Assembly (NCBI GenBank): GCA_002503845.1
Contig: DASO01000011.1
Span: 37,418 to 55,513 of the forward strand
Direction: 5' to 3'
DNA length: 18,096 nucleotides
Source of the DNA: Euryarchaeota archaeon UBA24
GTDB taxonomy: Archaea; Halobacteriota; Halobacteria; Halobacteriales; Hikarchaeaceae
Shown: positions 1 to 17,936 of the stretch, in pieces
How the letters are laid out: each line of letters opens with the position of its first letter
Numbering within the stretch: the first letter of the stretch is position 1
Program-made: the position numbers and the translations under genes
The notes under the pieces: generated by a model
What the model was told of the DNA's origin: nothing
The model's database searches: none
Seen by the model: only the letters and a program-made list of their open reading frames with translations

Positions 1-2514
1 AGGAGATTCTACATCTTCGTCAGGGGAAGGTTCCATTTCGAAGTCGCCTACGCCGGAACTAGGTATTATATCAACACTAGCTAGTCGGTCGCCTTTGTCC
101 ACATCCATAATTGTAACCCCCATAGTATTTCTTCCAATTAGAGAAATTCCATCGACGATGGTCCTCATTATTTGTCCTTTTTCAGTGATGGCAATCAGAT
201 GATCCCCCTCTCTAACAGTTTTTATTGCGCAAACACCTCCATTTCTTTTGACAGTTTTGATATCGATGACACCTTTTCCATTTCTCGATTGGATGCGATA
301 TGCATCAAGTAGGGATCGCTTCCCATATCCATGTTCAGTTAGAGTTAAAATCCAACTTGAAGATTCTCCGACAGCTGCCACACCCGCGACAGAATCTCCA
401 CTATTTAGTCGGATTGCGCGTACTCCGCGGGCAGAACGTCCCATGGACCTAACCTGCGTGTCGGCGAATCTAATGCTTTTTCCATTATTAGTGGAGATGA
501 CTAGTTCCTGAGTACCATTTGTAAGAACCACATCTACTAATTCGTCTCCGTCCTCTAATTTGGTTGCCACGATACCAACAGTACGGATGTTTTGGAAAGA
601 TTCAACAGAGGTTCTTTTTATGTATCCATCTCGGGTTATCATTGTAAAATATTCGCCCGGTTCAAAGTCAGTGGTGGCTACAACTGCAGCTATTTCTTCG
701 CCATCGCCTAGCTTCAAAACATTTACGGCGGATACACCCCGGGCCGTTCTACTTTTAGTAGGTACATCGTATACTTTTAATCGATATACACGCCCTAAAT
801 TGGTGAAACAAAGGAGATAATCGTGGGTGTTGGCAAAGAATACAGTTGCGACTTGGTCTTTATCCCTAAGTGCAGTTCCAATGATGCCTTTCCCGCCGCG
901 GTGTTGGGCTTTGAAAGTGGAGATGGGCATTCTTTTAATATAGTCGGATTCGGTGACCACTATAACCACATTTTCTTGAGGTATGAGGTCATCCCTACTG
1001 ACCTTTCCAGTGTCTGGTACTATTTCAGTTCGCCTCTCGCTAGAATATTTTTCACGGATTTTAAGGAGCTCTTCTTTGATTACTTTTAAGAGTTCAGATT
1101 CATCTGAAAGAATAGTTTCTAGCCGTTTAATTTGGTCGAGTAAATTGGCATGTTCTGACTGAATTTCAACAGATTCCATCTGAGTGAGGCTACCAAGTTG
1201 CATTCGGACTATATGTTCTGATTGAACTTCGGATAATCCAAAAAGATCACGTAATGCTTGTTTTGCGTCGGTTCGGTTCGATGCTCCACGGATTGTATTA
1301 ACGACGTCATCGATCCTTTCGAGTGCGATTAATCTGCCTTCGAGGATATGTGCCCGCTCCTCGGATTCATAGAGATCAAATTCAGATCGTCTAGTGACGA
1401 CTTCCTTTCTGTGGTCAATGAAATAGCATAGAGATTCTTTCAGATTCAAGATTTGGGGTTGGCCATCGACCAAAGCTAGATTGATCACTCCAAATGATGT
1501 TTCAAAAACCCTGCCAAGAAGTTGGTTTTGGACGACATCAGTATTTGCTGACCTAGATAATTCAACTACGACTCGTATACCATCTCTATTGGATTCATCA
1601 CGCAGATCGGTAATGCCTTCGATGACACCATCATTGGCTAGATTGGCTATGTGAGTTACCATTCTAGATTTGTTTACTTGATAGGGAATCTCAGTTATAA
1701 CTATTTTATCGCCGCTGTCAGATGGCTCGACTTCATAACTAGCTCGGATTCTGATGCGTCCACGGCCAGTGGTATAGGCATCGTGAATCCCTTCCCTACC
1801 AACTATTGCACCTCCAGTTGGAAAATCAGGTCCAACAACAGGTCCAGGGTTATCGGGTAAATCTATAAGATCGGTGACATCGCAATCGGGTTGGTCAATT
1901 ATGTGAACGGTTGCGTCAATTAATTCTCCGAGATTATGTGGAGGAATGTTAGTACTCATCCCGACAGCAATTCCAGAAGACCCATTTAATAATAATCCAG
2001 GAATTTGAGTGGGCAGAACAGTGGGCTCTGATAGGCGATCGTCATAGTTTGGTTGGAAATCGACAGTGTCGCGGTCAATATCTGAAAGATATTCTTCAGT
2101 TATTTTTTCCATTCGGGCTTCGGTATACCGCATTGCTGCAGCGTGATCACCGTCAACAGATCCAAAATTCCCTTGGCCTTCTATGAGAGGATATCGCATG
2201 GAGAATGGTTGCGCCATGCGGACGAGAGCATCGTAAATTGCAGAATCGCCATGGGGATGGAAATCCCCCATGGTTTGGCCAACGATGGAAGATGCTTTTC
2301 GAGGACTAGAGCTGCTTGTGACTCCTATTTGATGCATGGCATATAGAATTCGCCTGTGGACAGGTTTGAGTCCATCCCGAACATCGGGAAGTGCCCTTCC
2401 AGCGATAACACTCATGGCATAATCAATATAAGATTGCTCCATTTCTTCTTCGATCCGAACACGGAGAATTCTATCTTCGTTTGTCGGATTTGTAGGTTGG
2501 TTTTCAGAACTCAT
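1..2514 (-). CDS. gyrA: DNA gyrase subunit A (C-terminal end cut by window edge)
   Basis: Breakage-reunion subunit of gyrase, which with GyrB (encoded just upstream) introduces negative supercoils using ATP. 838 codons are open from the ATG at 2512-2514 to the window edge. The N-terminal winged-helix part has the [10 protein letters not shown] segment (residues about 86-95) and the catalytic tyrosine Y130 in [10 protein letters not shown] coiled-coil region follows. The C-terminal beta-pinwheel opens with a GyrA box, QHRGGKG at residues 537-543, which separates gyrase from topoisomerase IV. Repeats of the type [23 protein letters not shown] and [11 protein letters not shown] are the pinwheel blades. 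The last visible residues are acidic ([13 protein letters not shown]), so the protein is probably nearly complete. It lies 38 bp downstream of gyrB with no clear Shine-Dalgarno, consistent with co-transcription. Confidence 0.96.
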
Positions 2515-2552
2515 GATGTAATTAGAGATAAAGTATTATTGTTAATTTAGTA

Positions 2553-4661
<2,109 letters not shown>

Positions 4662-7043
4662 ATGGATTCATCCCAGTTGAAACTAGGGGAAAATGACATA
4701 GCAGAGAAATTGGCAGCGAGCCAGCGGCAGATTTCAATAGCCGAATTTTTTGAAAAAAATAAACATATGCTGGGATTTGATTCCAGATCCAGGGCATTGG
4801 TAACTGCGATTAAAGAAGCAGTTGACAATGCGCTAGATGCTACGGAAGAGGCAGGATATTTACCAGACATATATGTTGAGATTCAGGAATCTGGAAAGTA
4901 CTATACGGTCATCGTTGAAGATAATGGACCGGGGATTACAGAAAAGCAAATTCCAAAGGTGTTTGCCAAGTTACTCTATGGGTCTAGATTCCATAGAAGA
5001 GAACAGTCTAGAGGACAGCAGGGCATAGGTATTTCATCAGTAGTACTTTATTCCCAATTGACTTCGGGAGAGCCAGTTAAAATAACTAGTAGGACATCTA
5101 GTAAGAGCGAGGCCCATTATTTTGAATTGTTCATAAATACTGAAAAAAATGAACCAGAAATACGCACTCATAAGACGAAAGATTGGGATCGCCCCCATGG
5201 AACGAGAATTTCCTTTACACTAGAGGCAGATATGAGATCCAGAGTTCAATTGCATGAATACATTAGATATACTGCTATAGCAAACCCCCATGCTCGCGTG
5301 GAGTTAGTTGAGCCAAGAGAGCATTTTAAATTTGAAAGAAGTACAGAAGAAAAACCGGCGGTGACTGAATCAATTCGTCCGCATCCCCATGGTATTGAGG
5401 TGGGGTATTTAATCAAAATGTGCGGAGATTCAGAGACAGAAGCCATGTTGAAGTTTTTACAGGAAAAATTTTCTAGTGTTGGGCAGAAAACTGCCAAGGA
5501 GATAATAGGTAAATTTAGAGATATGCACTACGGTAGAGAAATGAAATGGGAAATTCCAGAATTAAAGGGGATAAAAAATGAACTTGAATTGGGATTTTCT
5601 TCGAAAGGGTTGTCTAATCTAGAAATACCAACAAAAGCCATTAATCGGATGAAAAATAGATTGGAAGAAAAAGACCAAATCACATATATAGAATTTGAAG
5701 AGGCAATAGCAGAAAGTCTGAATTCGGTTGAAGATTCTCCAAGAGATAGACTAGATGGGAAATCCCAAAAAGTAGTTAGGGATATTATTTGGAATAGATT
5801 TAAAGAGACTCAGATTTTGTATCTCATGGGATTGATAAACACTGTGACAGATTCTAGAAAAGAAGAAGAATTGGTGCGAAGAGTTTCAAGTAAAATTGTA
5901 CGTATTTTACAGAGAAAAACATATAGAGGTAGAATAACAAAAAATGAATTAGAGCAATGTATTTTAGAAACAAATAATAGAAATGATGGGCGGGTTGGCG
6001 GATCTATTGGAGAGGTCTCAAGAGAGAAAATAGTTAACGGTATTTGGGATGAATTGAAAATAATTGAGGACCCAATTCCGAAAATTTCTGTACTTAAGAA
6101 GAACAAAAATGCTATGTCGAATTTAGTTACTGCAATGCAATTGACAGATGTGAGAGCACCTCCAACTAATTGTCTTTCTCCCATTGGAATAGACAATATA
6201 GAATCGGGAATGCGTAAAGAAGTGGATGCAGAATTCTTTTCATCAAATAGTCGCGAGGCGATAGCGTATGGAGGAGATCCAATCGTGATTGAAGCGGGTT
6301 TGGCCTACGGGGGGAATTTAGAAAAAGAAAGTTCAATTGAGCTAGTTCGATTTGCGAATAGAGTGCCACTAGTTTACCAACAAGGGGGGTGTGCAATCAC
6401 AGAGGTAGTAAGGAATATTGATTGGAGAAATTATGGGTTGGATCAATCAAAGGGGAAAGGGATTCCAAGGGGACCCATGAGCCTAGTAGTCCATATCGCT
6501 TCGACAAATGTTCCGTTTACAAGTGAATCAAAAGATGCAATAGCAAGAATTCCGGTGATGGAAGTTGAAATTGAAAAGGCGATAAGGGATGTATCTAGAA
6601 AGCTCAAGAAATATTTACAGAAAAGGGATGCATTCCAGAAACAAAAACTGAAACAGGATGCACTTTCACAAATTCTTCCTAAAATTGCAGAAAGAGTGGC
6701 AAAAATAACAGAAAGGGAAATGCCACCAGTTGATCTAGTTCTTGCCAAAATAATAGGGAATGTGACTATTTCCCGGGTTCGGAAAGGTGACAAAATGGAA
6801 TTGACTATTACCAACTATACTGGTGGGAATTTGGAATTGGAGATAACAGAAATCACATCTAGAACACCAACTAAAATTTCAGAAGGATTGGTGGTAGATA
6901 TAGGGGAAGAATGGTTTATAAAATGGTCCCCTAAAATTAAGAAAAATGAATCCAAGATGTTGTCATATAGTGTAGATGAAGATGCAAAATTTGATATAGA
7001 TATTAAAGGGATTGAAAAGGAGAAAATGGTGCTAGATATATGA
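4662..7043 (+). CDS. top6B: DNA topoisomerase VI subunit B
   Basis: ATPase subunit of the type IIB topoisomerase (A2B2) that relaxes supercoils and decatenates DNA. The GHKL domain has E52 and N56 ([10 protein letters not shown]), D87 (VEDNGPGI) and the glycine loop RGQQGIG at 117-123. An H2TH-like helical segment follows around 255-285. The transducer has the typical [10 protein letters not shown] motif (500-509) and the switch lysine K624 in [12 protein letters not shown]. At 793 residues it is far longer than crenarchaeal Top6B (about 530). The extra length is a helical, charged insertion at about 310-480 and a beta-rich, Ig-like C-terminus (about 695-793), a layout I associate with haloarchaeal and methanosarcinal proteins. 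The start at 4662 gives the expected N-terminus. The stop overlaps the top6A start (ATGA). Confidence 0.97.
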
Positions 7044-8119
7044 ATTCCAAAGGGCACAAAAAGCTTATTGAAATTGCGGAGAAATTTTATGACCAATTTA
7101 TGGAAGGAAATGTTCCTTCAATGCAATTGCCAACTAGAAATAAATCAAATATTGTATATGATGAAGACTTAAAAGTGTGGGTCTATGGAGAAAAAAATAC
7201 AACTAGAATTGCAAATAATATAGGAGGTGCAACGAAATTATTAAAGGCTTCATTTACGATTGAATTTTTAACTAAACAACTTAATGAAAATAGATCTTCA
7301 ACGCTGAGAGAGTTATACTATATATCAGAAAGTTGGAGAGAAAAAGAGGCAAAATTTACCGCTCAGGAAGAATCTAATCAGCTAATTGAAGATCTAGAAA
7401 TAGTATCAGGGGTGAGACGGGAAGATTTTCATATGCGTCCTGAAGAATCGGGTGCTACGGTGATCGGCCCTCTTAAAATTGAAGAAAAAACACGAAGAGG
7501 GGAGCGTGAAATTCACTGTCAAGAGGATGTTGGAGAAGGGGGTTATCAAATTCCAGCAAACACAGATAGGATTAAATTTATTGATCACTCTGCAGATTTT
7601 GTCATGGCGGTTGAGACAGGGGGTATGCGGGATCGCCTAGTTGAAAATGGATTTGACGAAGATTATAATTCCATTATTGTTCATTTGAAGGGACAACCTG
7701 CTCGGGCGACTAGGAGGTTGATAAAGAGGTTAAATGAAGAGCTTGGCCTTCCAGTGTTAGTTTTCACAGACGGGGATCCATGGAGTTACAGAATTTTTGG
7801 ATCTGTGGCATATGGATCTGTTAAAAGTGCACATTTGAGTCCAGAGCTTGCCACCCCTGCTGCACAATTTGTGGGGATTCAACCAGTAGACATCATAGAA
7901 TATGACCTCCCCTCAGATCAATTGGCTGATGCAGACATAAACGCTTTAAAAAGTGAACTTCAAGATCCAAGGTTTCAGGGCGAATATTGGACCAAACAAA
8001 TAGAACTGCAACTCGAATTGGGTAAAAAGGCAGAACAACAAGCACTAGCTTCTAGGGGTTTGGACTTCGTTACTGAAGAGTACTTACCAAAGAGGCTTTC
8101 GGAAATGGGAATTATATAA
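7040..8119 (+). CDS. top6A: DNA topoisomerase VI subunit A (Spo11-like)
   Basis: DNA-cleaving subunit of topoisomerase VI and homologue of the meiotic protein Spo11; it forms transient double-strand breaks with a covalent tyrosine link. Its 359 residues are normal for the family. The winged-helix (5Y-CAP) domain carries [13 protein letters not shown], with a Tyr pair at 93/94; by analogy with Spo11 the second is the likely nucleophile. The Toprim domain has E192 (MAVETGGM) and D244/D246 ([19 protein letters not shown]), which bind Mg. The ATG at 7040 overlaps the top6B stop as ATGA, so translation is probably coupled and gives equal subunits. The gene ends only 4 bp from the convergent stop of the small zinc-ribbon gene. 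Confidence 0.97.
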
Positions 8120-8123
8120 ATAA

Positions 8124-8240
8124 TTAATTATAGGCAAATAAAGAGGTGTTCACACCAGATGTACCGCAATAAGTACATCCAAAGGTCCCTATGATATATC
8201 CTTGTTTACAGTTGGGGCAAGTTGATTTTCTTGAGATCAT
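8124..8240 (-). CDS. Small zinc-ribbon protein (38 aa), function unknown
   Basis: A 38-residue reading frame, MISRKSTCPNCKQGYIIG followed by TFGCTYCGTSG and a short tail. C8/C11 (CPNC) and C22/C25 (CTYC) form two CxxC knuckles 10 residues apart, the signature of a single zinc ribbon. Many archaeal one-domain zinc ribbons are this short. An in-frame TAA lies three codons upstream of the ATG at 8240, so no longer version exists. A strong TATA stretch (8271-8280) sits about 35 bp upstream. The gene faces top6A, with 4 bp between the two stops, and is divergent from the ligase gene. Such ribbons usually bind nucleic acid or protein, but no specific role can be assigned. The Cys pattern and promoter make chance unlikely. 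Confidence 0.72.
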   Translation of the reverse strand: MISRKSTCPNCKQGYIIGTFGCTYCGTSGVNTSLFAYN

Positions 8241-8270
8241 GATCTTTTATGAATATTCTTCTGCTCAAGA

Positions 8271-8280
8271 TTATATATAT
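8271..8280 (-). promoter_or_regulatory. TATA box for the 38-aa zinc-ribbon gene
   Basis: A run of alternating T and A (ttatatatat on the plus strand) is centred about 35 bp upstream of the zinc-ribbon ATG at 8240. The spacing suits an archaeal TATA box with a very short or absent leader. The sequence is nearly symmetric, so it could also fire rightward, but the ligase start at 8410 has a closer candidate. Confidence 0.5.
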
Positions 8281-8379
8281 CTCAGCCTAGAGCGTGGTGA
8301 AAGTGAAAATGGACATACAGAGATGTGATGATAGTATGACTCAATCCCTTGAATGGGCGGATCGTTTTCTCCCGGTGCG

Positions 8380-8389
8380 TTTATCCATA
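8380..8389 (+). promoter_or_regulatory. Candidate TATA box for DNA ligase
   Basis: TTTATCCATA is centred about 26 bp upstream of the ATG at 8410, the spacing expected if transcription starts at the first codon. It supports choosing 8410 over the upstream in-frame ATG at 8353, which would place this element inside the coding region. Confidence 0.42.
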
Positions 8390-8409
8390 TCCACTGGGTA
8401 CACGATCCA

Positions 8410-10071
8410 ATGGAACTCATACAGTTTGCAAATCGTCTGAGAGAAATCGAAGACGAACCATCAGATCTCTCGATTCGCGAACTGATAGTAGACCTGTTCA
8501 ACGACGAGAATTCCGACGTGAAAATTGTTGTCAGATTTCTCTTGGGACGTGTTTTTCCTGCATGGGATGATCAAAAAATGGATATCGGACCTAGTCTTTG
8601 TTATAATGCGATAGCTTCTGCGGCGGGTTCGGATGTTACAATCGAAGATATTGAAAATGATTTAGCAAGTCTTGGCGAAATAGGAGTTGTTGCTGAAAAA
8701 TATAATTCTGGTTCTCAGCGGGGGTTGTTTTCATTTGGATCGGAAGAAACAGCCGCCATGACCATATCTGAATTATATTCAGATCTATATACCATAGCTT
8801 CTATTCAGGGAACGGGGAGTTTGGAAAAAAAGCGCCGTGTTCTCTCAAATTTATTCAATTTATGTGGACCTATAGAAGCTAGATATCTCGCGAGATTGGT
8901 TTTATCAGAAATGCGTATTGGCGTGGGTGAAGGGGCAATTAGAGATGCCATATCAGCAGCTTTTGACATACCAATAGCAGATGTTGAAAGGGCCCTTCAA
9001 GTTTCAAACGATTTTGGTTTTGTAGCAGAAGTAGCCCGGGATGAAGGACTTGAAGGGGTGCACAAAATTAAATTAAAAATTGGAAGGCCCATTAGCTCAA
9101 TGTTGGCTCAATCTAGTACTATTGAAGACGCACTTTCTACCTGGAAACGAATATCGGTAGAACCAAAATATGATGGTGCTCGAATTCAAGCGCACTATAA
9201 TGGAGATTCAATTCGTCTTTATTCTAGGAATATGGAAGATGTAACTAATCCACTTCCAGAAGTAGTTGAATTCCTCCAAGAAAATCTTTCTAAGCCTGCT
9301 ATTCTTGATGGAGAAGTCGTTGCTGCAGATTCTGATGGAAATTCACTACCATTCCAAGAAGTTCTTCGGAGATTTAGACGCAAACATAATATTGAAAAAG
9401 CCCGAAAGGAAGTTCGACTCAGACCTTATTTTTTTGATTGCATTCATGCGGATGGGATTGACCTGTTAGATTCCCCATTGTCCTTGCGCAGGGGGCACCT
9501 TGATTCTATTTTAAAAAAGGGGAGTTCCCCCCTTGTTCTCACCGATGATTCAGAGCAAATAAAGAAAATGGAATTAGAATTTTTGGAAAGTGGGTTTGAA
9601 GGGATTATGTTGAAAAATCCAGATTCATTATATGCACCGGGGAAGAGAGGGAAAAATTGGTTAAAATGCAAACCGAGTGTTGATACCCTTGATTGTGTAA
9701 TCACGGGAGCAGAGTGGGGGAAGGGTCGTCGGGCGAATTTTTTGGGAGCGTTTGAACTCGCGGTTATTTCGTCGGCGGATGATTCAGGTATAGTGTATAA
9801 AAATGTTGGTAGAGTGGGGACGGGGATTACAGATGCAGAGTTAGAATCGATGACCGAATTGTTACGTCCATATATAGAAAACCAAACTGGAAAAATGGTA
9901 ACATTAACACCAAGAATTGTCCTGGAAGTGGGATACGAAGAAATCCAGCGTTCTTCTAATTATTCTTCGGGATATGCACTTAGATTTCCGCGAGTAGTCG
10001 CAGTCCGTGGCGATAAAAAATCAAGTGAAGCAGATACCTTAAAGAAAATTGAACAGTTATTTAAGTCATAG
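8410..10071 (+). CDS. lig: ATP-dependent DNA ligase
   Basis: Seals nicks, including joins between Okazaki fragments, through a lysyl-AMP intermediate. Its 553 residues from the ATG at 8410 fit archaeal replicative ligases (about 550-600). Order: an N-terminal helical DNA-binding domain (about 1-225), then the nucleotidyltransferase domain with motif I KYDGAR (adenylated K253), motif III FFDCIHADG (about 341-349), motif IV EGIML (397-401) and motif V WLKCK (417-421). The OB-fold domain ends with motif VI in ALRFPRVV (about 523-530). The reading frame extends upstream to an ATG at 8353, but MELIQFANRLREIE at 8410 matches the usual family N-terminus and the upstream 19 residues look non-coding. 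No NAD-type ligase motifs are present. It converges with the HTH/CBS gene across 55 bp. Confidence 0.96.
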   Translation: MELIQFANRLREIEDEPSDLSIRELIVDLFNDENSDVKIVVRFLLGRVFPAWDDQKMDIGPSLCYNAIASAAGSDVTIEDIENDLASLGEIGVVAEKYNSGSQRGLFSFGSEETAAMTISELYSDLYTIASIQGTGSLEKKRRVLSNLFNLCGPIEARYLARLVLSEMRIGVGEGAIRDAISAAFDIPIADVERALQVSNDFGFVAEVARDEGLEGVHKIKLKIGRPISSMLAQSSTIEDALSTWKRISVEPKYDGARIQAHYNGDSIRLYSRNMEDVTNPLPEVVEFLQENLSKPAILDGEVVAADSDGNSLPFQEVLRRFRRKHNIEKARKEVRLRPYFFDCIHADGIDLLDSPLSLRRGHLDSILKKGSSPLVLTDDSEQIKKMELEFLESGFEGIMLKNPDSLYAPGKRGKNWLKCKPSVDTLDCVITGAEWGKGRRANFLGAFELAVISSADDSGIVYKNVGRVGTGITDAELESMTELLRPYIENQTGKMVTLTPRIVLEVGYEEIQRSSNYSSGYALRFPRVVAVRGDKKSSEADTLKKIEQLFKS

Positions 10072-10126
10072 GCAGGGGCTATACTGGATGGCAGGTGTTG
10101 GAGAAACTATCAGAGAAAAGGTTTGA

Positions 10127-10690
10127 TTAAACAGAAGTATCAGTGCCGAGGTATGCAGCTACATCTGCTTGGGTTATGATTCCAACAGTAGTCCCAGAGT
10201 CCATAACAACAATGGCTTTGTAATGGTACAATAAACTAGAAATTTCATCTAGGGTGGAATTTTTACTGACAGTTGGGAAACTCTCCCCCATGATTTCGCT
10301 CACAGATAAATCACCTATTTCTGCATATTTTGCATGGGACTGAATGACGTCAGAATCGCTAATAGAACCGACAGAAGATCCATCCTGAATTACAGGTAAT
10401 TGAGAATAGCCAGTGTCCTGCATGCGCTTAACGGTGGCCTGTACTGTGTCTGCAGGAGATACGCTGATAACATCCTGGTGCATTAAAACCTCTGCACGAA
10501 CCAGAGATCCAGATTTCTCATCCATAGCGTTCACGATCCTACGGAGTGTTGATAATCGGGGGTCGACATCCCCTCCTTCTATTCTGGCTATCAAGGGTTG
10601 AGACACTCCTGCTCGCATCCCAAGTTCATTTTGAGTTAATCCAAGCTCGATTCTTCGATTTTTGAGAGATTGGGGGGTAGGCAACTCCAT
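10127..10690 (-). CDS. HTH (XRE-type) regulator with tandem CBS domains
   Basis: A 187-residue protein. Residues about 7-58 form an XRE/Cro-type helix-turn-helix (LKNRRIELGLTQNELGMRAG, then SQPLIARIEGG). Two CBS domains follow, about 69-117 (VLMHQDVISVSPADTVQATV) and about 130-182 (VSEIMGESFPTVSKNSTLDE). Paired CBS domains form a Bateman module that often binds adenine nucleotides or S-adenosylmethionine, so this is probably a ligand-responsive DNA-binding protein. HTH plus CBS fusions are common in archaea, but I do not know a proven target for this one. It is divergent from psmB across 116 bp and both promoters carry the same 8-base TATA core, which makes psmB and itself plausible targets. 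It converges with lig at its 3' end. Confidence 0.88.
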   Translation of the reverse strand: MELPTPQSLKNRRIELGLTQNELGMRAGVSQPLIARIEGGDVDPRLSTLRRIVNAMDEKSGSLVRAEVLMHQDVISVSPADTVQATVKRMQDTGYSQLPVIQDGSSVGSISDSDVIQSHAKYAEIGDLSVSEIMGESFPTVSKNSTLDEISSLLYHYKAIVVMDSGTTVGIITQADVAAYLGTDTSV

Positions 10691-10710
10691 AAAAATAATA
10701 ACCAGGAGTA

Positions 10711-10718
10711 ATACATAA
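10711..10718 (-). promoter_or_regulatory. TATA box of the HTH/CBS regulator
   Basis: Read on the minus strand this is TTATGTAT, centred about 24 bp upstream of the ATG at 10690. The same 8 bases occur in the psmB promoter at about the same distance. No Shine-Dalgarno is visible, so a leaderless transcript is likely. Confidence 0.5.
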
Positions 10719-10779
10719 GTGTTTCTTGAGGAGATTAGGAGGATGGCATAGCAATACTCTGTGTCCGAAGCGTTGAGGC

Positions 10780-10789
10780 TTTATGTATA
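10780..10789 (+). promoter_or_regulatory. TATA box of psmB
   Basis: TTTATGTATA is centred about 23-26 bp upstream of the paired ATG codons at 10807 and 10810. This fits an archaeal TATA box with transcription starting at or next to the start codon. An AGGAGG-like stretch near 10738-10743 is too far upstream to be the psmB ribosome-binding site. Confidence 0.55.
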
Positions 10790-10806
10790 GAGGCAAGTAA
10801 CATGGG

Positions 10807-11538
10807 ATGATGACTACTACCTCTGATACGGATTCTCGAATAAGTACAAGAAGAAAATTATTTTCAAATCCATATGGACCCGAGTTGGGGAACGTGCCTC
10901 AGCAAAAAATGGGTCGAGAGGAAATGGAAGAAATTGTAAAGACGGGGACGACAACAATTGGGTTGTCTACCGCAGAAGGTGTGGTATTGGCAACGGACAT
11001 GAGAGCTAGTTTGGGAGGCAGATTTATTGCAAGTAAAGATGTTCAAAAAGTAGAACAAGTACATCCAAATGCTGCAGTGACCATGTGTGGATCGGTAGGG
11101 GGAGCTCAGGCTTTTATTCGTTCGCTAAAGGCAGAAACCAATCTATATGGAATGAGGAGAGGCAAGGAAATGAGTATCAAAGCACTTGCTACATTGGCTG
11201 GAAATTTCCTTAGAAGCAACTGGACTGTATTTTTAATATCTCCAATATTGGGAGGAGTGGATAAAGAAGGGAATCAAGTATACAGTTTGGACATAGGGGG
11301 AGCAGTTATGCTAGATAATTATGTTGCTACAGGTAGTGGAATGCAGTTGGCGTATGGGGTACTTGAAGACAAGTATGAAGAGGGAATGACCAACAAAGAG
11401 GCTTCTTCTGTTGCAGCACAAGCGATTAAAAGTGCTAGCCAAAGAGATGCGGCTAGTGGGGATGGAATTTATTTATCAGTGATTACAGAAGAAGGTGTAG
11501 ATATCCAAGGTTTCAAAGACTTTAAAGGATTGATATAA
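10807..11538 (+). CDS. psmB: Proteasome beta subunit (20S core, N-terminal nucleophile hydrolase)
   Basis: Catalytic subunit of the cytoplasmic archaeal 20S proteasome, which degrades unfolded or tagged proteins together with alpha rings and a PAN/Cdc48 ATPase. Its 243 residues include a propeptide of about 47. Autocleavage should fall between G47 and T48 in KTGTTTIG, exposing T48 as the catalytic N-terminal threonine. D64 (ATDMRAS) and K81 match the active-site Asp17 and Lys33 of the Thermoplasma enzyme. TGSGMQLAYGVLE and SQRDAASGDG are further family motifs. The long propeptide containing GPELG resembles haloarchaeal PsmB. The start may be 10807 or 10810 (Met-Met). It is divergent from the HTH/CBS regulator, and its last 17 bp overlap the convergent TraB-family gene. 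Confidence 0.97.
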   Translation: MMTTTSDTDSRISTRRKLFSNPYGPELGNVPQQKMGREEMEEIVKTGTTTIGLSTAEGVVLATDMRASLGGRFIASKDVQKVEQVHPNAAVTMCGSVGGAQAFIRSLKAETNLYGMRRGKEMSIKALATLAGNFLRSNWTVFLISPILGGVDKEGNQVYSLDIGGAVMLDNYVATGSGMQLAYGVLEDKYEEGMTNKEASSVAAQAIKSASQRDAASGDGIYLSVITEEGVDIQGFKDFKGLI

Positions 11539-12802
11539 GGATATCAAGAATATTCTCCACCCCTTGTAAAAGTGCGTCGAACAGGGCGGATATGCCGCCA
11601 ATATCAGGGGCGATGAGGGGGATAATTATAAAGGGAAATAGAAAACTAGCGATAATACTTCCTATATTAGTCATTGCGACTATCATAATCAATTTGAATA
11701 AGGGTACATCATATAAACTAGACAAAAGAGATGAAGTTGATGCGTCTTTATTGTCAAATAGGTCATTTAGTTTTTCAAGGTCTGATGTTGAAATTGAAAG
11801 GTATTTTAGTTCAATATATCCCGCGAACCACCCAGGGGCCAATAAAGGGTTGAGACTAGTTGCCCAAGCGACTAGTCCACCAACGGCTGCACTAGACCAG
11901 TGCGCACCAGCAAGTTTGGCGAAGGTGAAAGCGAAAATGGCATTAAACAAAACCCAGGAAAAGAAGAGTCGGAGTAGAAACATATTTTGTACCCCTGCCA
12001 TGACCAGTAAAATGAAAAAGGAAATGAATGCCAACGCTATGAGATATCCGATGAGTTTGAAAATGGGAAAACGGGTTTTATGTGAAAGTTGAGTTAAAGA
12101 ATCAAGAGGCGGGAGATTCTCAGGATGCGAAAGATACTGTTCAATTCCAGAAACATGACCAGCCCCCACTACTGCCACTATATTCGTCTCTACAGAGGCT
12201 ATTTTTAGTAGTTGATGGGCAATATATGCATCTCGTTCGTCGATGAGTGCCTGTGCTCCGCGGGGGGAAAATTTACGGAATTCAGCTATCATGGCAGTTA
12301 CTATATCAGTATCTTCCGCAGTAGAGGGGTCATACTCATTTGAAGTAAGGAAAGAATTGAAACTCGTGATGCTAAATATGAGTTCCCAAACTAATTTTAT
12401 TTTTTGTAATGGAGAAATGCTATTCCAGAATCGATTTATCGTTATTTGGATATCTCGATCCACCAGGGCCAAATTAATTTGATTCTCTCTCGCCACATCT
12501 ATTGCCGCCTTCATGTCCGCACCGGGGGTAACGCCGAAATGTTTTGCTATTTTTTTCTGGATTGTGGAGAGTAACCAATATGCTAAAAATTGGAAAACTG
12601 CTTTGTTATTTAGGAATTTGTTTGGGGCTAATTCATCGGGGAAATCATCGCAAAGTTGCTTGTATCTAAGAGTATCTAATTCAACTGCGACTACATCGGG
12701 GAGATCAGTTTCAATCGTGTGAGTAACTAGATCCACACTATCTTTTGAAACATGAGAAGTTCCAAGAAGTTTAATAGAACCTATAGGGGTTCCAGAAGTC
12801 AT
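11522..12802 (-). CDS. TraB/PrgY-family membrane protein
   Basis: A 426-residue protein. Its soluble N-terminal domain has the family's two conserved histidine motifs, GTSHVS (14-19, H17) and GAGHVSGI (213-220, H217), plus VAVELD (E41) and DERDAYIA (188-195). The C-terminus has about four to five membrane segments (roughly 248-270, 274-298, 303-325 and 369-400). The TraB/PrgY/TIKI/GumN superfamily includes enterococcal PrgY, which blocks pheromone activity, and animal TIKI metalloproteases. Euryarchaeal members are common but uncharacterised, so a membrane-anchored metal-dependent peptidase is only an inference. The gene overlaps the 3' end of psmB by 17 bp in convergent orientation. That closeness to the proteasome may be chance. 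Confidence 0.85.
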   Translation of the reverse strand: MTSGTPIGSIKLLGTSHVSKDSVDLVTHTIETDLPDVVAVELDTLRYKQLCDDFPDELAPNKFLNNKAVFQFLAYWLLSTIQKKIAKHFGVTPGADMKAAIDVARENQINLALVDRDIQITINRFWNSISPLQKIKLVWELIFSITSFNSFLTSNEYDPSTAEDTDIVTAMIAEFRKFSPRGAQALIDERDAYIAHQLLKIASVETNIVAVVGAGHVSGIEQYLSHPENLPPLDSLTQLSHKTRFPIFKLIGYLIALAFISFFILLVMAGVQNMFLLRLFFSWVLFNAIFAFTFAKLAGAHWSSAAVGGLVAWATSLNPLLAPGWFAGYIELKYLSISTSDLEKLNDLFDNKDASTSSLLSSLYDVPLFKLIMIVAMTNIGSIIASFLFPFIIIPLIAPDIGGISALFDALLQGVENILDILISIL

Positions 12803-12850
12803 AGGGTTGATTGTACGTTCGCTGGGTTACATGTATCGAATTTGTAGATC

Positions 12851-12860
12851 TATTTAAATA
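12851..12860 (+). promoter_or_regulatory. TATA box of the Cys/His protein-cutA operon
   Basis: TATTTAAATA, a perfect palindrome, is centred 29-30 bp upstream of the ATG at 12885, the expected place for a leaderless or near-leaderless transcript. Being symmetric it could also serve the leftward TraB-family gene, though it lies about 53 bp from that start. Confidence 0.6.
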
Positions 12861-12884
12861 CTACAGAGATCAACGTGAAAGAGT

Positions 12885-13079
12885 ATGTCCGAGGAGGTTC
12901 GTTTATGTCCACCAACAGATCGCAAATGTATTTTATGCGAGAGGGTGGAGGAATGGGATGGGGAGACTAGTAATTGGGAAATTAGAGAGATAAATGGCAA
13001 AGAGATGGTAGGCGAGAAGTTCTGTATGCATGAATGGGACATAACAGGAACTCACAAATCAATCATAGAAGTAGTATAA
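12885..13079 (+). CDS. Small Cys/His-rich (possible zinc-finger) protein, 64 aa
   Basis: A 64-residue protein with C8, C15, C18, C47 and H49, in the pattern C-x6-C-x2-C-x28-C-x-H. Four of these could bind one zinc ion. The end FCMHEWDITGTH is distinctive, and I faintly associate similar endings with small haloarchaeal proteins, but I cannot name a family. It is charged, with no membrane segment. It has its own strong TATA box, and its stop TAA shares one base with the cutA start (TAATG), so both are probably made from one transcript with coupled translation. The coupling, promoter and metal-ligand pattern argue that it is real. Its role is unknown; a metal-related link with CutA is only an inference. 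Confidence 0.72.
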   Translation: MSEEVRLCPPTDRKCILCERVEEWDGETSNWEIREINGKEMVGEKFCMHEWDITGTHKSIIEVV

Positions 13080-13399
13080 TGCCGACGGGGTATGTAACAG
13101 TTCCAAGAGGATTATCTGAAGAAATAGCATATAAAATTGTTGAGTTGCGCCTCGCTGCTTGTGTGAATATAATAGAATGCAGTTCGATATATGAGTGGGA
13201 TGGCGAAATTCAAAATGAAGAGGAATCCATACTTATAATTAAAACTTCAGATGAAATGTTTGAAGAAATGATTTCAAGAATAAAGAGCCTGATTCCTTAT
13301 GAAATTCCATGTATTGAGAGATTTGAAGAAGATTGGACCGATGAAATGTTTAAAAAGTGGAGAGATGAGTTTGTGAACGAAAGAGAAAAAGAAATTTAA
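13079..13399 (+). CDS. cutA: CutA1-family divalent-ion tolerance protein
   Basis: CutA1 proteins are small, very stable trimers with a ferredoxin-like (PII-like) fold. They were first linked to copper tolerance in E. coli, but their cellular role is unsettled. These 106 residues start at MPTGYVTVP and contain the family motifs LAACVNII (25-32), YEWDGEI (38-44) and IPYEIPCIERF (72-82). The reading frame extends back to 13034, but the ATG at 13079 gives the standard N-terminus and couples to the upstream gene through TAATG. The usual His before PYE is Ile (residue 72) here, so one possible metal ligand is missing. The gene overlaps the convergent HAD phosphatase gene by 4 bp. Confidence 0.95.
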   Translation: MPTGYVTVPRGLSEEIAYKIVELRLAACVNIIECSSIYEWDGEIQNEEESILIIKTSDEMFEEMISRIKSLIPYEIPCIERFEEDWTDEMFKKWRDEFVNEREKEI

Positions 13400-14067
13400 T
13401 CGTTTGTTAAAGAAGAGAGAACTTCTAACAATCCCGATGCAGATGGTAAAGTGGTCACATTATTTGCCATCTTTTGGACAGATAGAGGAGCATTTGAAAC
13501 TGCATATGAATTTCCGGTTGCAAGGAATAAAGGGATGTCATTTTCAGAATCTCCGATGGAAACGAAATCCATTGGATCAAGTCCAATTCGTTTGGAAATG
13601 GCGCGTAACCCTGCCCCTTTATCCACACCAGATGGGCTAATGTGATAGGCGTAATTGCTATCTACTACATTCAGGTCGAATTGGCTAGCATATCTTTTGA
13701 GAAGGTCTAAAGAGACGCTGTGTGAGGCTGCTATTTCTGTTTGTCTCCATCGATTTACCAGATCAGATCCTGGCCAACCATAGTCGTGTCCATCCCCACG
13801 GAAAGCTTTATCAAACTTATGGAGTGCGGAGAGATCATAAGTAGGAATGAGATCATCGTTGTGAACTATGATTCCTCCATTCTCTGCAACAACCAATATA
13901 TCTATGCCTATGTAGTCACAGAGTGCGATTGGGTAGGGTACTGCTTTTCCTGTTGCGACTACAATAGTTCCATTCCAACTTCTCAGAGCGTCAAAAATAC
14001 GGCCCTCAATGGAACGGTCTTCTCGAGACATTGTGCCATCTATATCGATGGCAAGAGGGGGGTTCAT
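13396..14067 (-). CDS. pgp: Phosphoglycolate phosphatase-like HAD hydrolase
   Basis: A 223-residue HAD-superfamily phosphatase with a C2-type cap, of the archaeal TA0175/phosphoglycolate phosphatase group, which removes phosphate from 2-phosphoglycolate. Motif I is DIDGT (nucleophile D8, acid D10), motif II is VATGK (T39), motif III is K150 in GVDKG and motif IV is GDSENDIPLF (D173, D177). ATGKAVPYPIALC and VAENGG resemble haloarchaeal members. The related sucrose-phosphate and sugar-phosphatase families share this fold, so the substrate is not certain. The ATG at 14067 is preferred over an upstream in-frame TTG at 14088, which overlaps a TATA-like box and adds residues unlike the family. It is the third gene of the aglB-side leftward run, 63 bp after the DUF368 gene, and overlaps cutA by 4 bp. 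Confidence 0.9.
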   Translation of the reverse strand: MNPPLAIDIDGTMSREDRSIEGRIFDALRSWNGTIVVATGKAVPYPIALCDYIGIDILVVAENGGIIVHNDDLIPTYDLSALHKFDKAFRGDGHDYGWPGSDLVNRWRQTEIAASHSVSLDLLKRYASQFDLNVVDSNYAYHISPSGVDKGAGLRAISKRIGLDPMDFVSIGDSENDIPLFLATGNSYAVSNAPLSVQKMANNVTTLPSASGLLEVLSSLTND

Positions 14068-14083
14068 TGATTGAGACTGACAA

Positions 14084-14093
14084 TACAAAAAAA
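14084..14093 (-). promoter_or_regulatory. Candidate TATA box for the HAD phosphatase
   Basis: Read on the minus strand this is TTTTTTTGTA, centred about 22 bp upstream of the ATG at 14067. It suggests the phosphatase has its own promoter even though it follows the DUF368 gene. Confidence 0.38.
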
Positions 14094-14130
14094 TGAGCCT
14101 ATCGATTGGAAAGTCTCGAGAAAAATCTAA

Positions 14131-15066
14131 TCAAGTAGAAGAATTATATACTCGGGATAATGTATAAGGTACAAATATCCCCACTAAAAAAGAAAATAAA
14201 ATCAGGAGAATTGAGCTGAAGTTTGAGGATGGAATGTTGTTGACTATTTCAGAAATTGGAAATCTAAAAGAGCCCACCATTAATGCAATTAGAACAGACA
14301 TGGTCGTTGCTCGATCTCGAGTTAAGGCAAGTTTTACAAATTTTGCAGAGTTGATCAGTCCGATAAAGAATCCAAAACCAAACACAAAAAGAATCAATGA
14401 TGATTTTAAGATAGTGTGATAATCTCCATCAAATAATGCGGGTAAGGAAAATAAGAACTCATTTAGAGTTGTAAGCAAGAACTCATAAAATCCGATAATG
14501 TAAAGTAGAGCCGCTCCGGAAATTCCAGGTAGTAGCATGGCGAGACTGACCAACACACCAGAGATAAAAATATAAAAAAGTCCAGGGGAAGTTTGGATGG
14601 CAGAAATGTTTCCAGATAAGAAAAAGGAAATAGAAAATGCAAGTATTGTTGATACAATCCTAAAAATGGAATCCAATCTAACTTCATTATAAAGTAGGAT
14701 TAGTGACATGACCAAAATGCCTATGAAAAATGAATTTGCAGAAGCACGAAAATGTACAAATACAAATGAAATGAGATTGGAAAGGATCACTATAGCAGTT
14801 ACTATCCCAATTGATAAAGGTGCTAAAAAGAATAGGTCCAGTTCGCGGATGGAGTTCTGAAAATTGGATTTTGAAGAAGGATTTCTTGAATGGATTAAGT
14901 TAGATAAAAGGGATAGGTTGAATGCAGAGATACTAGATAAAAGACGATCGTATATACCGATTATAAGTGCAATTGTCCCTCCAGATAGTCCGGGGACTAT
15001 ATTTGCAGTTCCCATGAAAATTCCTTTCACGTAGATATGAAGTGCTTCTTTTAGTGATTCTTTCAT
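14131..15066 (-). CDS. DUF368 / PopT-family polyprenyl-phosphate transporter
   Basis: A 311-residue integral membrane protein with about eight or nine hydrophobic segments. It carries the DUF368 signature twice: PGLSGGTIALIIGIYDRLL (25-43) and PGISGAALLYIIGFYEFLL (180-198). These are internal repeats that probably form re-entrant hairpins. Bacterial DUF368 proteins (PopT) were reported in 2023 to return undecaprenyl-phosphate across the membrane. By inference this archaeal member recycles dolichol-phosphate set free by AglB. Support is strong locally: its ATG overlaps the aglB stop (ATGA, 15063-15066), and an AAGGA lies 9 bp upstream, so the two are translationally coupled. Other substrates are possible, since archaeal DUF368 proteins have not to my knowledge been assayed. 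Confidence 0.9.
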   Translation of the reverse strand: MKESLKEALHIYVKGIFMGTANIVPGLSGGTIALIIGIYDRLLSSISAFNLSLLSNLIHSRNPSSKSNFQNSIRELDLFFLAPLSIGIVTAIVILSNLISFVFVHFRASANSFFIGILVMSLILLYNEVRLDSIFRIVSTILAFSISFFLSGNISAIQTSPGLFYIFISGVLVSLAMLLPGISGAALLYIIGFYEFLLTTLNEFLFSLPALFDGDYHTILKSSLILFVFGFGFFIGLINSAKFVKLALTRDRATTMSVLIALMVGSFRFPISEIVNNIPSSNFSSILLILFSFLVGIFVPYTLSRVYNSST

Positions 15067-17936
15067 GGTGTATTTTCCTTAGGCTTGATTATACCAATAG
15101 AATCGTCCCAGACGCAATTGCATAGTTCCCAGAAATTTTCTTTCAAATCGATAGTGAGTTCGGGCCCGAGGCCATTTACAGAGGAATCGGGTACATGAAT
15201 AGTGCCTTCATGGGTTTGGAATTCAGTGGTGATATAATAAGGGCCCGCAGCGCGTACATCGACATTGGTATAACCATTTTCGGGCCCAAGTTCATCATAT
15301 CCTATCGTGGAATATGGAACGGTCATCGTGAATTTTCCAGAAGAATCAGAGGTAGTATGTTGGGCATAATGAAACGTGGAATTTGTTGTAGGAACGTGCA
15401 TGGCCACTATTGCAGAAATGGAAGTGTTAGGTGGCGCGGTCCCAGTAATGGTTGCACCAGGAACGCGCTCGAAAATTTTAACCCAGGAAGAGGGAGTATG
15501 CACATAATAAGGTGAAATCTGAACCACATTTGGTGTGGCATAAACTAGCCTGTAGTGCTCAAGTGCGGGGACAGATTCTGTTGAAAATGTTCCAATTCCA
15601 CCTAGCTGGGAAGTGGGATTTTCTTGAGTGAAACTCTGAGCCTCTTCGATTGTTTCGAAAACTAGGAACATATCAGGATCCCCAGGCCGGGTTTGGGACA
15701 GTTTATAGTATTCAGGGTCAAGTCCGGGTACGATATCCCAATCAATGACAAGAGGTGTTGGAGCTATGGAACTTCCATGGTAGTGGTAAAGCCGAACCAT
15801 TTGGGAGTTGTAATAAGAAGAGGGGTGAAGAATATGACGTAGCTGATACCCACCTCCAGAACTTACAGGGACCTCTTCAAATAGATAGTTTTGGTAATCT
15901 CGAACGGAGACTCCTTCTTTGAAGGTAGCGGGTCCATGCAGTTTTACTCCAGAAGATACCATTTGCCAATCTAAAGCGATATAGCGAACTCCAGATCCCT
16001 CATCAAGGTCGGAAAGGACATCCTCAGATTCGGATTCGCTTTGGGAGAGTAGATAGTTTGCTGAAACTACCGCACCCTCTTGGAAGGGGTTGGAAACAGG
16101 AATCCGCTCGGCCCTTAAGGTTATCCAATGTCCATAGTCCCACCAGGACATTACACCATAGGTTCCATCGGGATATGCAAAATCGCCTGCGGCATTGTCC
16201 CCCAGACGATTAGATTCCACAGTTCCATAATAGTCAAGGGGATTGTTTGAACCACCATAGTTTCCCACAATTGGTGTTTCAGTTCTCATCCATTGAAGTG
16301 CAGGGTCCCAATTTGATACTTCATTGAGAGGGATGGTCTCAGTGATGTCGAAAACCGTGTAAGTATTGATTGGCGTGGTGCCATCAGTTCCTACTTGAAT
16401 GGGGATTGCCAAGGGGAAAAGTACCACAAGAAAAACTACGAGAATGACTCCAAATTGATACGGCCTTATGGACCGAAGTTTGCCTATATTGAATTGTTGG
16501 AAGATGCATTTCAATACATATGCGTTTAACACTACAACAGGGATTGCTAGATAATAATTGAACCTACCTTGAGTGAAAGCTGCAGCCCCAATCAGAATGG
16601 ACCAAATGATCAAAAGTAAAATGCCGGATTCGTATTTTTTCTCACTTAAATAATTCTTCACGATGAAGAATGGAGCAAGAAATGCCATGAAAAAGGCATA
16701 ACCATATTCTTGACGGATTACGTCGATCCAACTAATACCGAGAGTGGCATCGGCGAGTGATAAAAACGACATGGCTTCGGAGATCGTTCTGGTTCCTGCA
16801 GAAATATTAAACCCGAAAGTTCGGATTAGATTTCTTCTTAAGATTCCAAATACATCGGGGAAAATTAGATAGAGAATAAGAGTTGTAAATGACAATATGA
16901 CAAGAAGGAGAATCGGATATCCCCATCGAGGGAGGTTATTGTTGGAGAAAAATCTAGATAACCATGCAAGAAATGCACACCCTATCGCTATGGAGAGGGC
17001 AATTAGAGGGTGTAAAAGGGAGATGCTAGTGACTCGGAAATTTAATCCCGAACTAAGTTCTGCAGGGTAGGGTACATCTACAAAAAGGAGGAGTAATAAA
17101 CCTACAAAAGCCATACTAATCACGCCGAGGAATGCTATATACTCTGGACTATTTCCAGAGAGGTGGTCTATATTTGATCTGATGAAGAAAAATATGGCGA
17201 AAATTCCCAGTAAAAGTAATCCAGGAGGCCATACCAAAAGATAAAGTAAAGTTGTCAGTCCAACCAATCCGCCCCAGGTTAAAGATTTCTTTAAGTTGGG
17301 AAAGTCTTTTGCCCCCACCAATTCCCACACGGGTTTTTCTTCGAGAAAAATGGTGATTGCAAATAACAAAGTCAATATTGCAATAGTTTGGAAAAATACC
17401 TCTGCGATGTGGTGGTCTGAAAAGCCTGCTATTCCTCGTTGGAAAAATACTCCAGGTAATAACGCCAATAACAGCGCGGCGAAAATTCCCCCACTTTTTC
17501 CTCCAAAATGTTTGGCTATAAAGTAGGTAGGGAATATGGTCAAAGAGCCAATAAGTGCAGGAGTGACAATGAGTATTTTCATGATTAGCTCGGCAGATGG
17601 GCTTCCCGCTCCAATAATTAATGCAAATGTTGCCACAATTTGGTCATATAAAGTTCCAAATTGGCCGACTTGAGTTCCATAAGGGAAATTTGTCCAAGGG
17701 TCGAAGGGCATGGTAAATGGCCAATGGTGGATAGTGTAGGTTACCGTTCGAAGGTGATACCAGGGGTCGTTTCCAGCTAGATATATCTGATCATTGAAAA
17801 AATAAGAAGGGTATGCCCTCATTCGAGTCCAAAACATAAATAGAAATATGAGAATAAGGGAGATTTCGGCACACCATTTTTCAATGAAATGTGTAAATGG
17901 AGTTTGGGAGAGGCTAGATGCGAGGTTATTTTTCAT
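15063..17936 (-). CDS. aglB: Oligosaccharyltransferase AglB (STT3 family)
   Basis: Membrane enzyme that transfers a glycan from dolichol-(pyro)phosphate to Asn in N-x-S/T sites of proteins on the outer face of the membrane, such as S-layer proteins. The 957 residues have an N-terminal multi-spanning part (about 23-510, roughly 13 helices) and a large external domain. D57 in GNDPWYHLR is the first acidic motif. GFSDHHIAE (171-179) supplies the second. The external-loop motif TISE (384-387) is the archaeal form of SVSE/TIXE. WWDYG (598-602) binds the sequon. The C-terminus has a beta-rich Ig-like region (about 826-935), as in long haloarchaeal AglB. The ATG at 17936 gives a short cytoplasmic tail. 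It leads a leftward operon with the coupled DUF368 gene. Confidence 0.97.
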   Translation of the reverse strand: MKNNLASSLSQTPFTHFIEKWCAEISLILIFLFMFWTRMRAYPSYFFNDQIYLAGNDPWYHLRTVTYTIHHWPFTMPFDPWTNFPYGTQVGQFGTLYDQIVATFALIIGAGSPSAELIMKILIVTPALIGSLTIFPTYFIAKHFGGKSGGIFAALLLALLPGVFFQRGIAGFSDHHIAEVFFQTIAILTLLFAITIFLEEKPVWELVGAKDFPNLKKSLTWGGLVGLTTLLYLLVWPPGLLLLGIFAIFFFIRSNIDHLSGNSPEYIAFLGVISMAFVGLLLLLFVDVPYPAELSSGLNFRVTSISLLHPLIALSIAIGCAFLAWLSRFFSNNNLPRWGYPILLLVILSFTTLILYLIFPDVFGILRRNLIRTFGFNISAGTRTISEAMSFLSLADATLGISWIDVIRQEYGYAFFMAFLAPFFIVKNYLSEKKYESGILLLIIWSILIGAAAFTQGRFNYYLAIPVVVLNAYVLKCIFQQFNIGKLRSIRPYQFGVILVVFLVVLFPLAIPIQVGTDGTTPINTYTVFDITETIPLNEVSNWDPALQWMRTETPIVGNYGGSNNPLDYYGTVESNRLGDNAAGDFAYPDGTYGVMSWWDYGHWITLRAERIPVSNPFQEGAVVSANYLLSQSESESEDVLSDLDEGSGVRYIALDWQMVSSGVKLHGPATFKEGVSVRDYQNYLFEEVPVSSGGGYQLRHILHPSSYYNSQMVRLYHYHGSSIAPTPLVIDWDIVPGLDPEYYKLSQTRPGDPDMFLVFETIEEAQSFTQENPTSQLGGIGTFSTESVPALEHYRLVYATPNVVQISPYYVHTPSSWVKIFERVPGATITGTAPPNTSISAIVAMHVPTTNSTFHYAQHTTSDSSGKFTMTVPYSTIGYDELGPENGYTNVDVRAAGPYYITTEFQTHEGTIHVPDSSVNGLGPELTIDLKENFWELCNCVWDDSIGIIKPKENTP
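15076..15080 (-). promoter_or_regulatory. Shine-Dalgarno-like site for the DUF368 gene
   Basis: AAGGA on the minus strand, inside the last codons of aglB, ends 9 bp before the DUF368 ATG at 15066. It would help reinitiation at the ATGA overlap. It is one of the few ribosome-binding-site-like sequences in a window where most starts have none. Confidence 0.4.

Follow-up and report, generated by a model that had tools for sequence, protein, structure and literature searches.

A conserved aglB–DUF368 gene pair in haloarchaea and a candidate step for dolichol-phosphate return in archaeal N-glycosylation

The bacterial undecaprenyl-phosphate translocases PopT, VCA0040 and SAOUHSC_00846 belong to the PF04018 (DUF368) family and are marked by twin PGxSG motifs and an internal duplication. 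Models of bacterial PopT have been described as having two re-entrant loops and two-fold inverted symmetry (PMC10216114). The DUF368 protein of Haloferax volcanii (HVO_RS12060) at least partly rescues Vibrio cholerae lacking vca0040, and the family is enriched in Halobacteria, an enrichment that Sit et al. tie to high-salt adaptation (PMC9876793). The same job has been proposed in bacteria for UptA, a DedA protein (PF09335), whose Pfam family differs from DUF368. In H. volcanii, whose agl cluster comprises aglJ–aglM, AglB and AglR, dolichol phosphate serves as the lipid on which the main glycan is assembled; the glycan is then flipped, and AglB transfers it. The last mannose has a dolichol-phosphate carrier of its own, separate from that of the main glycan (PMC3871713). 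The archaeal N-glycans known to 2015 are transferred from dolichol monophosphate, with a single exception (PMC4476749). With a monophosphate donor, transfer by AglB would therefore leave dolichol phosphate outside, as a counterpart of undecaprenyl phosphate. Here, we analyzed an 18,096-nucleotide stretch of Euryarchaeota archaeon UBA24 (contig DASO01000011.1; hereafter, the window), in which an aglB gene is directly followed by a DUF368 gene. A sequence-only reading of the window had proposed that this pair couples glycan transfer to the return of the lipid carrier.

The product of 15063–17936 (minus strand) is securely identified, from profile matches and motifs, as an AglB oligosaccharyltransferase of the same family as that of the H. 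volcanii agl cluster. The protein matched TIGR04154 (archaeal STT3) at 801.6 bits against a cut-off of 450, and the Pfam domains STT3 (70.2 bits), AglB_core-like (75.5 bits) and AglB_L1 (61.5 bits) were detected, with PF02516, PF22627 and PF18079 all matched, so that the STT3, core and long peripheral domains are present. The motifs DPWYH, DHH, TISE and WWDYG lie at residues 57, 174, 384 and 598, respectively. The best sequence matches in the Protein Data Bank were the oligosaccharyl transferases 5gmy and 3waj, which we take to be Archaeoglobus AglB.

The product of 14131–15066 (minus strand) is, on its sequence, a secure member of PF04018 (VCA0040-like / DUF368), which it matched over residues 18–271 at 173.1 bits against a gathering cut-off of 26. 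Both gene identities given in the sequence-only reading were thus borne out, as was the ATGA overlap with an AAGGA 9 bp upstream, which was read directly at positions 15063–15066 and 15076–15080 (Table 1). The PGxSG motif occurs at residues 25 and 180, each of which forms a helix break in the structure model (predicted local distance difference test score 87.3, confident), and all 69 aligned relatives keep both motifs, the alignment holding 69 of 121 proteins (P0001 plus 120 listed from 1,045 matches). Alignment of one half of the protein to the other scored 105, whereas the best of 500 shuffles scored 73, indicating an internal duplication. The twin motifs, the duplication and the predicted fold fit the two re-entrant loops of PopT. 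Fold searches with the model against solved structures returned no informative relative.

The window protein is 34% identical to P0076, the database DUF368 protein of H. volcanii, which is in turn 94% identical to an aglB-adjacent protein of Haloferax gibbonsii and which we infer to be HVO_RS12060. The complementation of V. cholerae makes a return of dolichol phosphate by DUF368 more likely. Four proteins annotated as Nanohaloarchaea DUF368 (P0025, P0031, P0036, and P0068) are 35–38% identical to the window protein. The setting differs from that of the bacterial translocases: the host is an archaeon without peptidoglycan, so that the lipid would be a dolichol phosphate, and the gene sits behind an oligosaccharyltransferase gene.

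The conservation of the pair was examined at the best 80 of 455 genome-contig matches to AglB, a set tilted to near relatives, and linkage was counted from a stop-to-stop open reading frame (ORF) search, since gene callers overlooked many DUF368 genes where the loci are GC-rich. Of these 80 loci, 58 have DUF368 on the same strand as aglB and downstream of it. Among the 22 loci without DUF368, one contig stops 1 nt and another 1,007 nt after aglB, and L106 and L117 were excluded from the linked/unlinked count because of contig breaks. Gene starts were picked by script to determine the distance between the two genes at 57 of the 58 linked loci; there are 10 overlaps (7 of them of −4), 16 gaps of 0–20 nt, 23 of 21–200 nt, and 8 of over 200 nt. 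The exact −4 overlap seen in the window is a minor detail.

In a sample of 148 genomes across the phylum, STT3 was found in 139 genomes and DUF368 in 44, all of which also have STT3. DUF368 lies within 5 kb of STT3 in 20 of these 44 genomes, in every case on the same strand and 3′ of STT3. In the other 24, it lies at 14–21 kb in 4 genomes, farther in 4, and on a separate contig in 16, where contig ends may hide linkage. Within this sample, no link was seen beyond the haloarchaeal clade. The tendency of DUF368 to lie close to aglB in relatives, on which the sequence-only reading had staked its proposal, thus held strongly for Halobacteria and Marine Group IV and was not seen to hold beyond them. 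DUF368 cannot be the general archaeal solution to carrier return, because it is absent from 104 of the 148 genomes while 139 have STT3, and because the link was seen in one clade only. The sequence-only reading is thus partly supported.

These results suggest that DUF368 probably gives the dolichol phosphate released by AglB back to the inner face of the membrane. According to this proposal, aglB and DUF368 would be co-transcribed and translationally coupled, and their products would act one after the other in the lipid-carrier cycle that serves archaeal N-glycosylation. At the outer face, AglB would move the glycan from dolichol monophosphate onto protein, freeing dolichol phosphate outside; DUF368, a putative two-repeat transporter with twin PGxSG hairpins, would bring it to the inner face, where glycosyltransferases would recharge it.

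Several observations weigh against this proposal. The DUF368 protein of the window scores far under the cut-off of 400 of the NCBIfam PopT equivalogs NF052563 and NF052564 (92.7 and 143.1 bits), so that it is classed, on its profile scores, as a PF04018 member rather than a PopT equivalog. Three further DUF368 proteins, the H. volcanii one included, likewise fall far under both cut-offs; P0076 scores 89.1 and 188.6 bits against 400. In addition, positions 1–17936 of the window, with gyrA, gyrB, top6B, top6A, ligA, CBS-HTH, psmB, TraB, CutA, HAD, DUF368, and aglB, look like an ancestral haloarchaeal block, and the first aglB–DUF368 adjacency may have been accidental and kept afterwards. If the adjacency were nothing but an inherited accident of such a block, it would be functionally meaningless. 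TraB, CutA, HAD, and psmB are indeed found near aglB in 15, 16, 16, and 6 of the 80 loci, respectively, and gyrA lies less than 60 kb from aglB in 7 of 23 haloarchaeal-type genomes (less than 40 kb in 3), as expected for an accident, but the pairs of this block have fared very differently. Within 5 kb, DUF368–HAD was found in 3/23 genomes, HAD–CutA in 3/10, CutA–TraB in 1/10, and TraB–psmB in 4/23, whereas aglB–DUF368 was kept in 20/23, an upper figure that could be too high, given for a set of 20 genomes chosen as linked and 3 unlinked ones falling in the haloarchaeal DUF368 clade, 58/80 being the less selected figure. The difference between aglB–DUF368 and DUF368–HAD gave a Fisher p of 8e-7 with related genomes treated as independent, and the positive control, gyrA–gyrB of a known complex, was found in 23/23. 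One match per gene was used in each genome for these distances; the second TraB match was used in G071, and in G071, G011, and G004 the additional DUF368 copy was left out. In a DUF368 tree built by a quick method (LG+G4), in which the root and the long branches are uncertain, the linked state spans the clade of the window and the early haloarchaeal branches, and about four changes between the linked and unlinked states are needed, which suggests that the link is old and was then lost several times. Halobacterial genomes are related, and linked ones cannot be counted as separate events. These comparisons make an accident of inheritance an unlikely explanation.

The remaining observations of this kind concern the dependence of the two proteins on each other and on other membrane proteins. 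STT3 occurs without DUF368 in 95 of the 148 genomes, indicating that AglB does not need DUF368, and all 21 genomes searched in which no DUF368 is seen at the AglB locus retain the gene (two of these loci being contig breaks), indicating that DUF368 does not need the aglB link. Because neither needs the other, a broad recycling role is favored, in which N-glycosylation would be one main user in Halobacteria. In its strict form, such a role would make DUF368 a general polyprenyl-phosphate recycler for N-glycans, exopolysaccharide, and users of dolichol-phosphate-mannose, with the position beside aglB setting the dosage only; the transport chemistry would be the same as in our proposal, and the user would differ. 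This explanation could well apply, its chance falling just short of even. It is consistent with the 21 retentions, with the separate dolichol-phosphate carriers of H. volcanii (PMC3871713), and with the 18 loci where DUF368 lies away from aglB, at which no family exceeded 4 of 103 neighbor genes among the first 25 of 91 families listed, whereas the link to aglB was kept in 58 of 80 loci while other neighbors scattered, and an AglM-family gene adjoins DUF368 in five unlinked Halobellus genomes, both of which point to N-glycosylation as a main user. A profile built from eight flippase proteins detected a Wzx-type flippase ORF in 30 of the 58 linked and 15 of the 22 unlinked AglB loci. The flippase, being as common without DUF368, therefore marks aglB and is no sign of DUF368. 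An outward flippase acting on glycan-charged dolichol phosphate upstream of the AglB step would act in the same membrane and could be encoded by the same gene pair; a review describes flipping of the main Haloferax glycan and leaves the protein for this step unnamed (PMC3871713), and no Wzx-type ORF was found in the stretch examined at the other 28 linked loci. DUF368 is nevertheless highly unlikely to be this flippase, since a Wzx-type ORF is already present in the 30 loci, and since the activity of the bacterial family is on the bare monophosphate, with the H. volcanii protein at least partly substituting (PMC9876793). Ten linked loci have a Wzx-type flippase directly before aglB on the same strand (seven directly upstream ones were checked with Pfam), which raises the idea that the flippase, AglB, and DUF368 form one membrane-bound carrier-cycle machine, in which flipping out, transfer, and return could be served from one transcript and AglB might hand dolichol phosphate over to DUF368 without letting it go into the bilayer. 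We regard this arrangement as rather doubtful; if true, it would represent the first identified archaeal dolichol-phosphate return step. DedA, found in 77 of the 148 genomes, was considered as a substitute for DUF368 and rejected: outside the haloarchaeal set it occurs in 6/21 genomes with and 48/104 without DUF368 (p 0.16), and across all 148 genomes its association with DUF368 is positive (29/44 versus 48/104, p 0.03).

Table 1. Positions of the aglB–DUF368 pair and adjoining features in the window
Feature	Position	Strand	Basis
aglB, archaeal oligosaccharyltransferase, 957 aa	15063..17936	-	STT3-family profile matches and motifs
DUF368 / PF04018 polyprenyl-phosphate-transporter-like membrane protein, 311 aa	14131..15066	-	Pfam match, twin PGxSG
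ATGA overlap of the aglB stop (TGA) and the DUF368 start (ATG)	15063..15066	-	Direct reading
AAGGA (Shine-Dalgarno-like) within the aglB coding sequence, 9 nt ahead of the DUF368 ATG	15076..15080	-	Direct reading
HAD-type phosphatase (phosphoglycolate phosphatase family), 42 nt 3′ of DUF368	13396..14088	-	Profile match

The HAD-type phosphatase gene served as a neighbor and control and is not thought to belong to the proposed aglB–DUF368 unit. The nearest AglB loci are those of Marine Group IV HikBin4 (85%) and two Halobacteriales metagenome-assembled genomes (82%). The window has a GC content of 41%, and its proteins are less acidic than those of most haloarchaeal loci examined. The source resembles Marine Group IV archaea, a group related to Halobacteria and also named 'Hikarchaeia'. 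No AglB relative was found in the viral contigs searched, and a scan with a bacterial promoter model, which is ill-suited to archaea, gave no more matches in the window than in shuffles.

The neighbors of the pair were tallied at 44 of the 58 linked loci. Among the genes directly 5′ of aglB (42 loci, two having no upstream gene), Glycos_transf_2 was matched 18 times, Polysacc_synt 8 times, and Glycos_transf_1 4 times, a single gene possibly matching several families. No family exceeded 5 matches among the 41 genes 3′ of DUF368, a cut downstream HAD piece in L002 and two loci without a called gene having been dropped. Because sugar genes lie 5′ of aglB and nothing recurs 3′ of DUF368, DUF368 tends to mark the border of the glycosylation cluster. 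The two genes are separated by a UDP-glucose dehydrogenase gene (AglM family), with aglB on one side and DUF368 on the other, at four loci of Haloferax and one of Haloquadratum; AglM-family neighbors were identified with Pfam at two loci and with tblastn at the rest. Halospeciosus flavus has a second Wzx-type flippase ORF directly behind DUF368 on the same strand (L012:14135-15574).

At the unlinked loci, the neighbor set was reduced from 105 to 103 genes by dropping L106:3-290 and L117:3-917, and L100, L104, and L108, where the gene caller missed DUF368, stand outside the tally. Outside Halobellus, single glycosylation neighbors may still be conceivable at these loci. In the five Halobellus genomes (L104, L105, L107, L118, and L120), DUF368 lies away from aglB and adjoins, in divergent orientation, a UDP-glucose dehydrogenase gene of the AglM family, and in Haloferax profundi, where the aglB contig breaks off, an AglM-family dehydrogenase gene lies about 1 kb from DUF368. 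At one Halobellus locus, the relocated DUF368 adjoins a gene (L105:8121-9395) whose product carries a Cas12f1-like TNB domain (TnpB-like), a possible trace of how DUF368 moved. At six AglB loci of the Haloarcula type that have no DUF368 (L028, L031, L034, L047, L051, and L061), TraB, CBS-HTH, and psmB still lie downstream of aglB, and part of the ancestral block therefore outlasted DUF368 there. The four genomes with DUF368 at 14–21 kb from STT3 (G116, G126, G135, and G145) were not counted as linked clusters, their neighbors having no glycosylation theme; the DUF368 neighbors named in these genomes are a nucleobase permease, a UPRTase, a CAAX-protease-like protein, a histidine-kinase-type ATPase domain, and a phosphoglycerate mutase.

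The DUF368 tree covers the DUF368 genomes of the phylum sample apart from five of the 44 (G030, G035, G058, G121, and G157), which is one reason why the figure of 20/23 may be too high. Outside the haloarchaeal clade it holds 16 unlinked loci to which we assigned the label 'methanogen'; 15 of them group together, and the placement of the long-branched L095 is unsure. At the loci with DUF368 outside the haloarchaeal clade (L081–L096), the 90 neighbor proteins of the 16 loci include 10 matches to apgM-type phosphoglycerate mutase and 7 to NAD-dependent sugar epimerase.

Thus, the DUF368 protein of the window is a new member of a known family, and its setting beside aglB seems to be unreported. 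No paper joining AglB with DUF368 was found in the literature searched, supplementary files and Roney and Rudner (2023) lying outside its scope, and no protein assigned to the return of archaeal dolichol phosphate to the cytoplasmic face was found in it. The abstract of Roney and Rudner (2023) is said to speak of syntenic analyses, and the link may already be in print there. A review also uses the words 'syntenic analyses' for the two transporter families (PMC10216114). The published H. volcanii agl cluster spans aglJ to aglM, and DUF368 goes unmentioned in the main text of that paper (PMC5867893) and in those of PMC7921747, PMC10384203, and PMC4973528.

The conserved aglB–DUF368 pair occurs in relatives of the genetically tractable Haloferax, which makes carrier return directly testable. 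The return of the N-glycan carrier may help to explain why DUF368 is enriched in Halobacteria, beside the adaptation to high salt (PMC9876793). If the proposed role is true, what is known of PopT in bacteria would carry over to N-glycosylation in archaea, and a missing step in the building of the archaeal cell surface would be filled.

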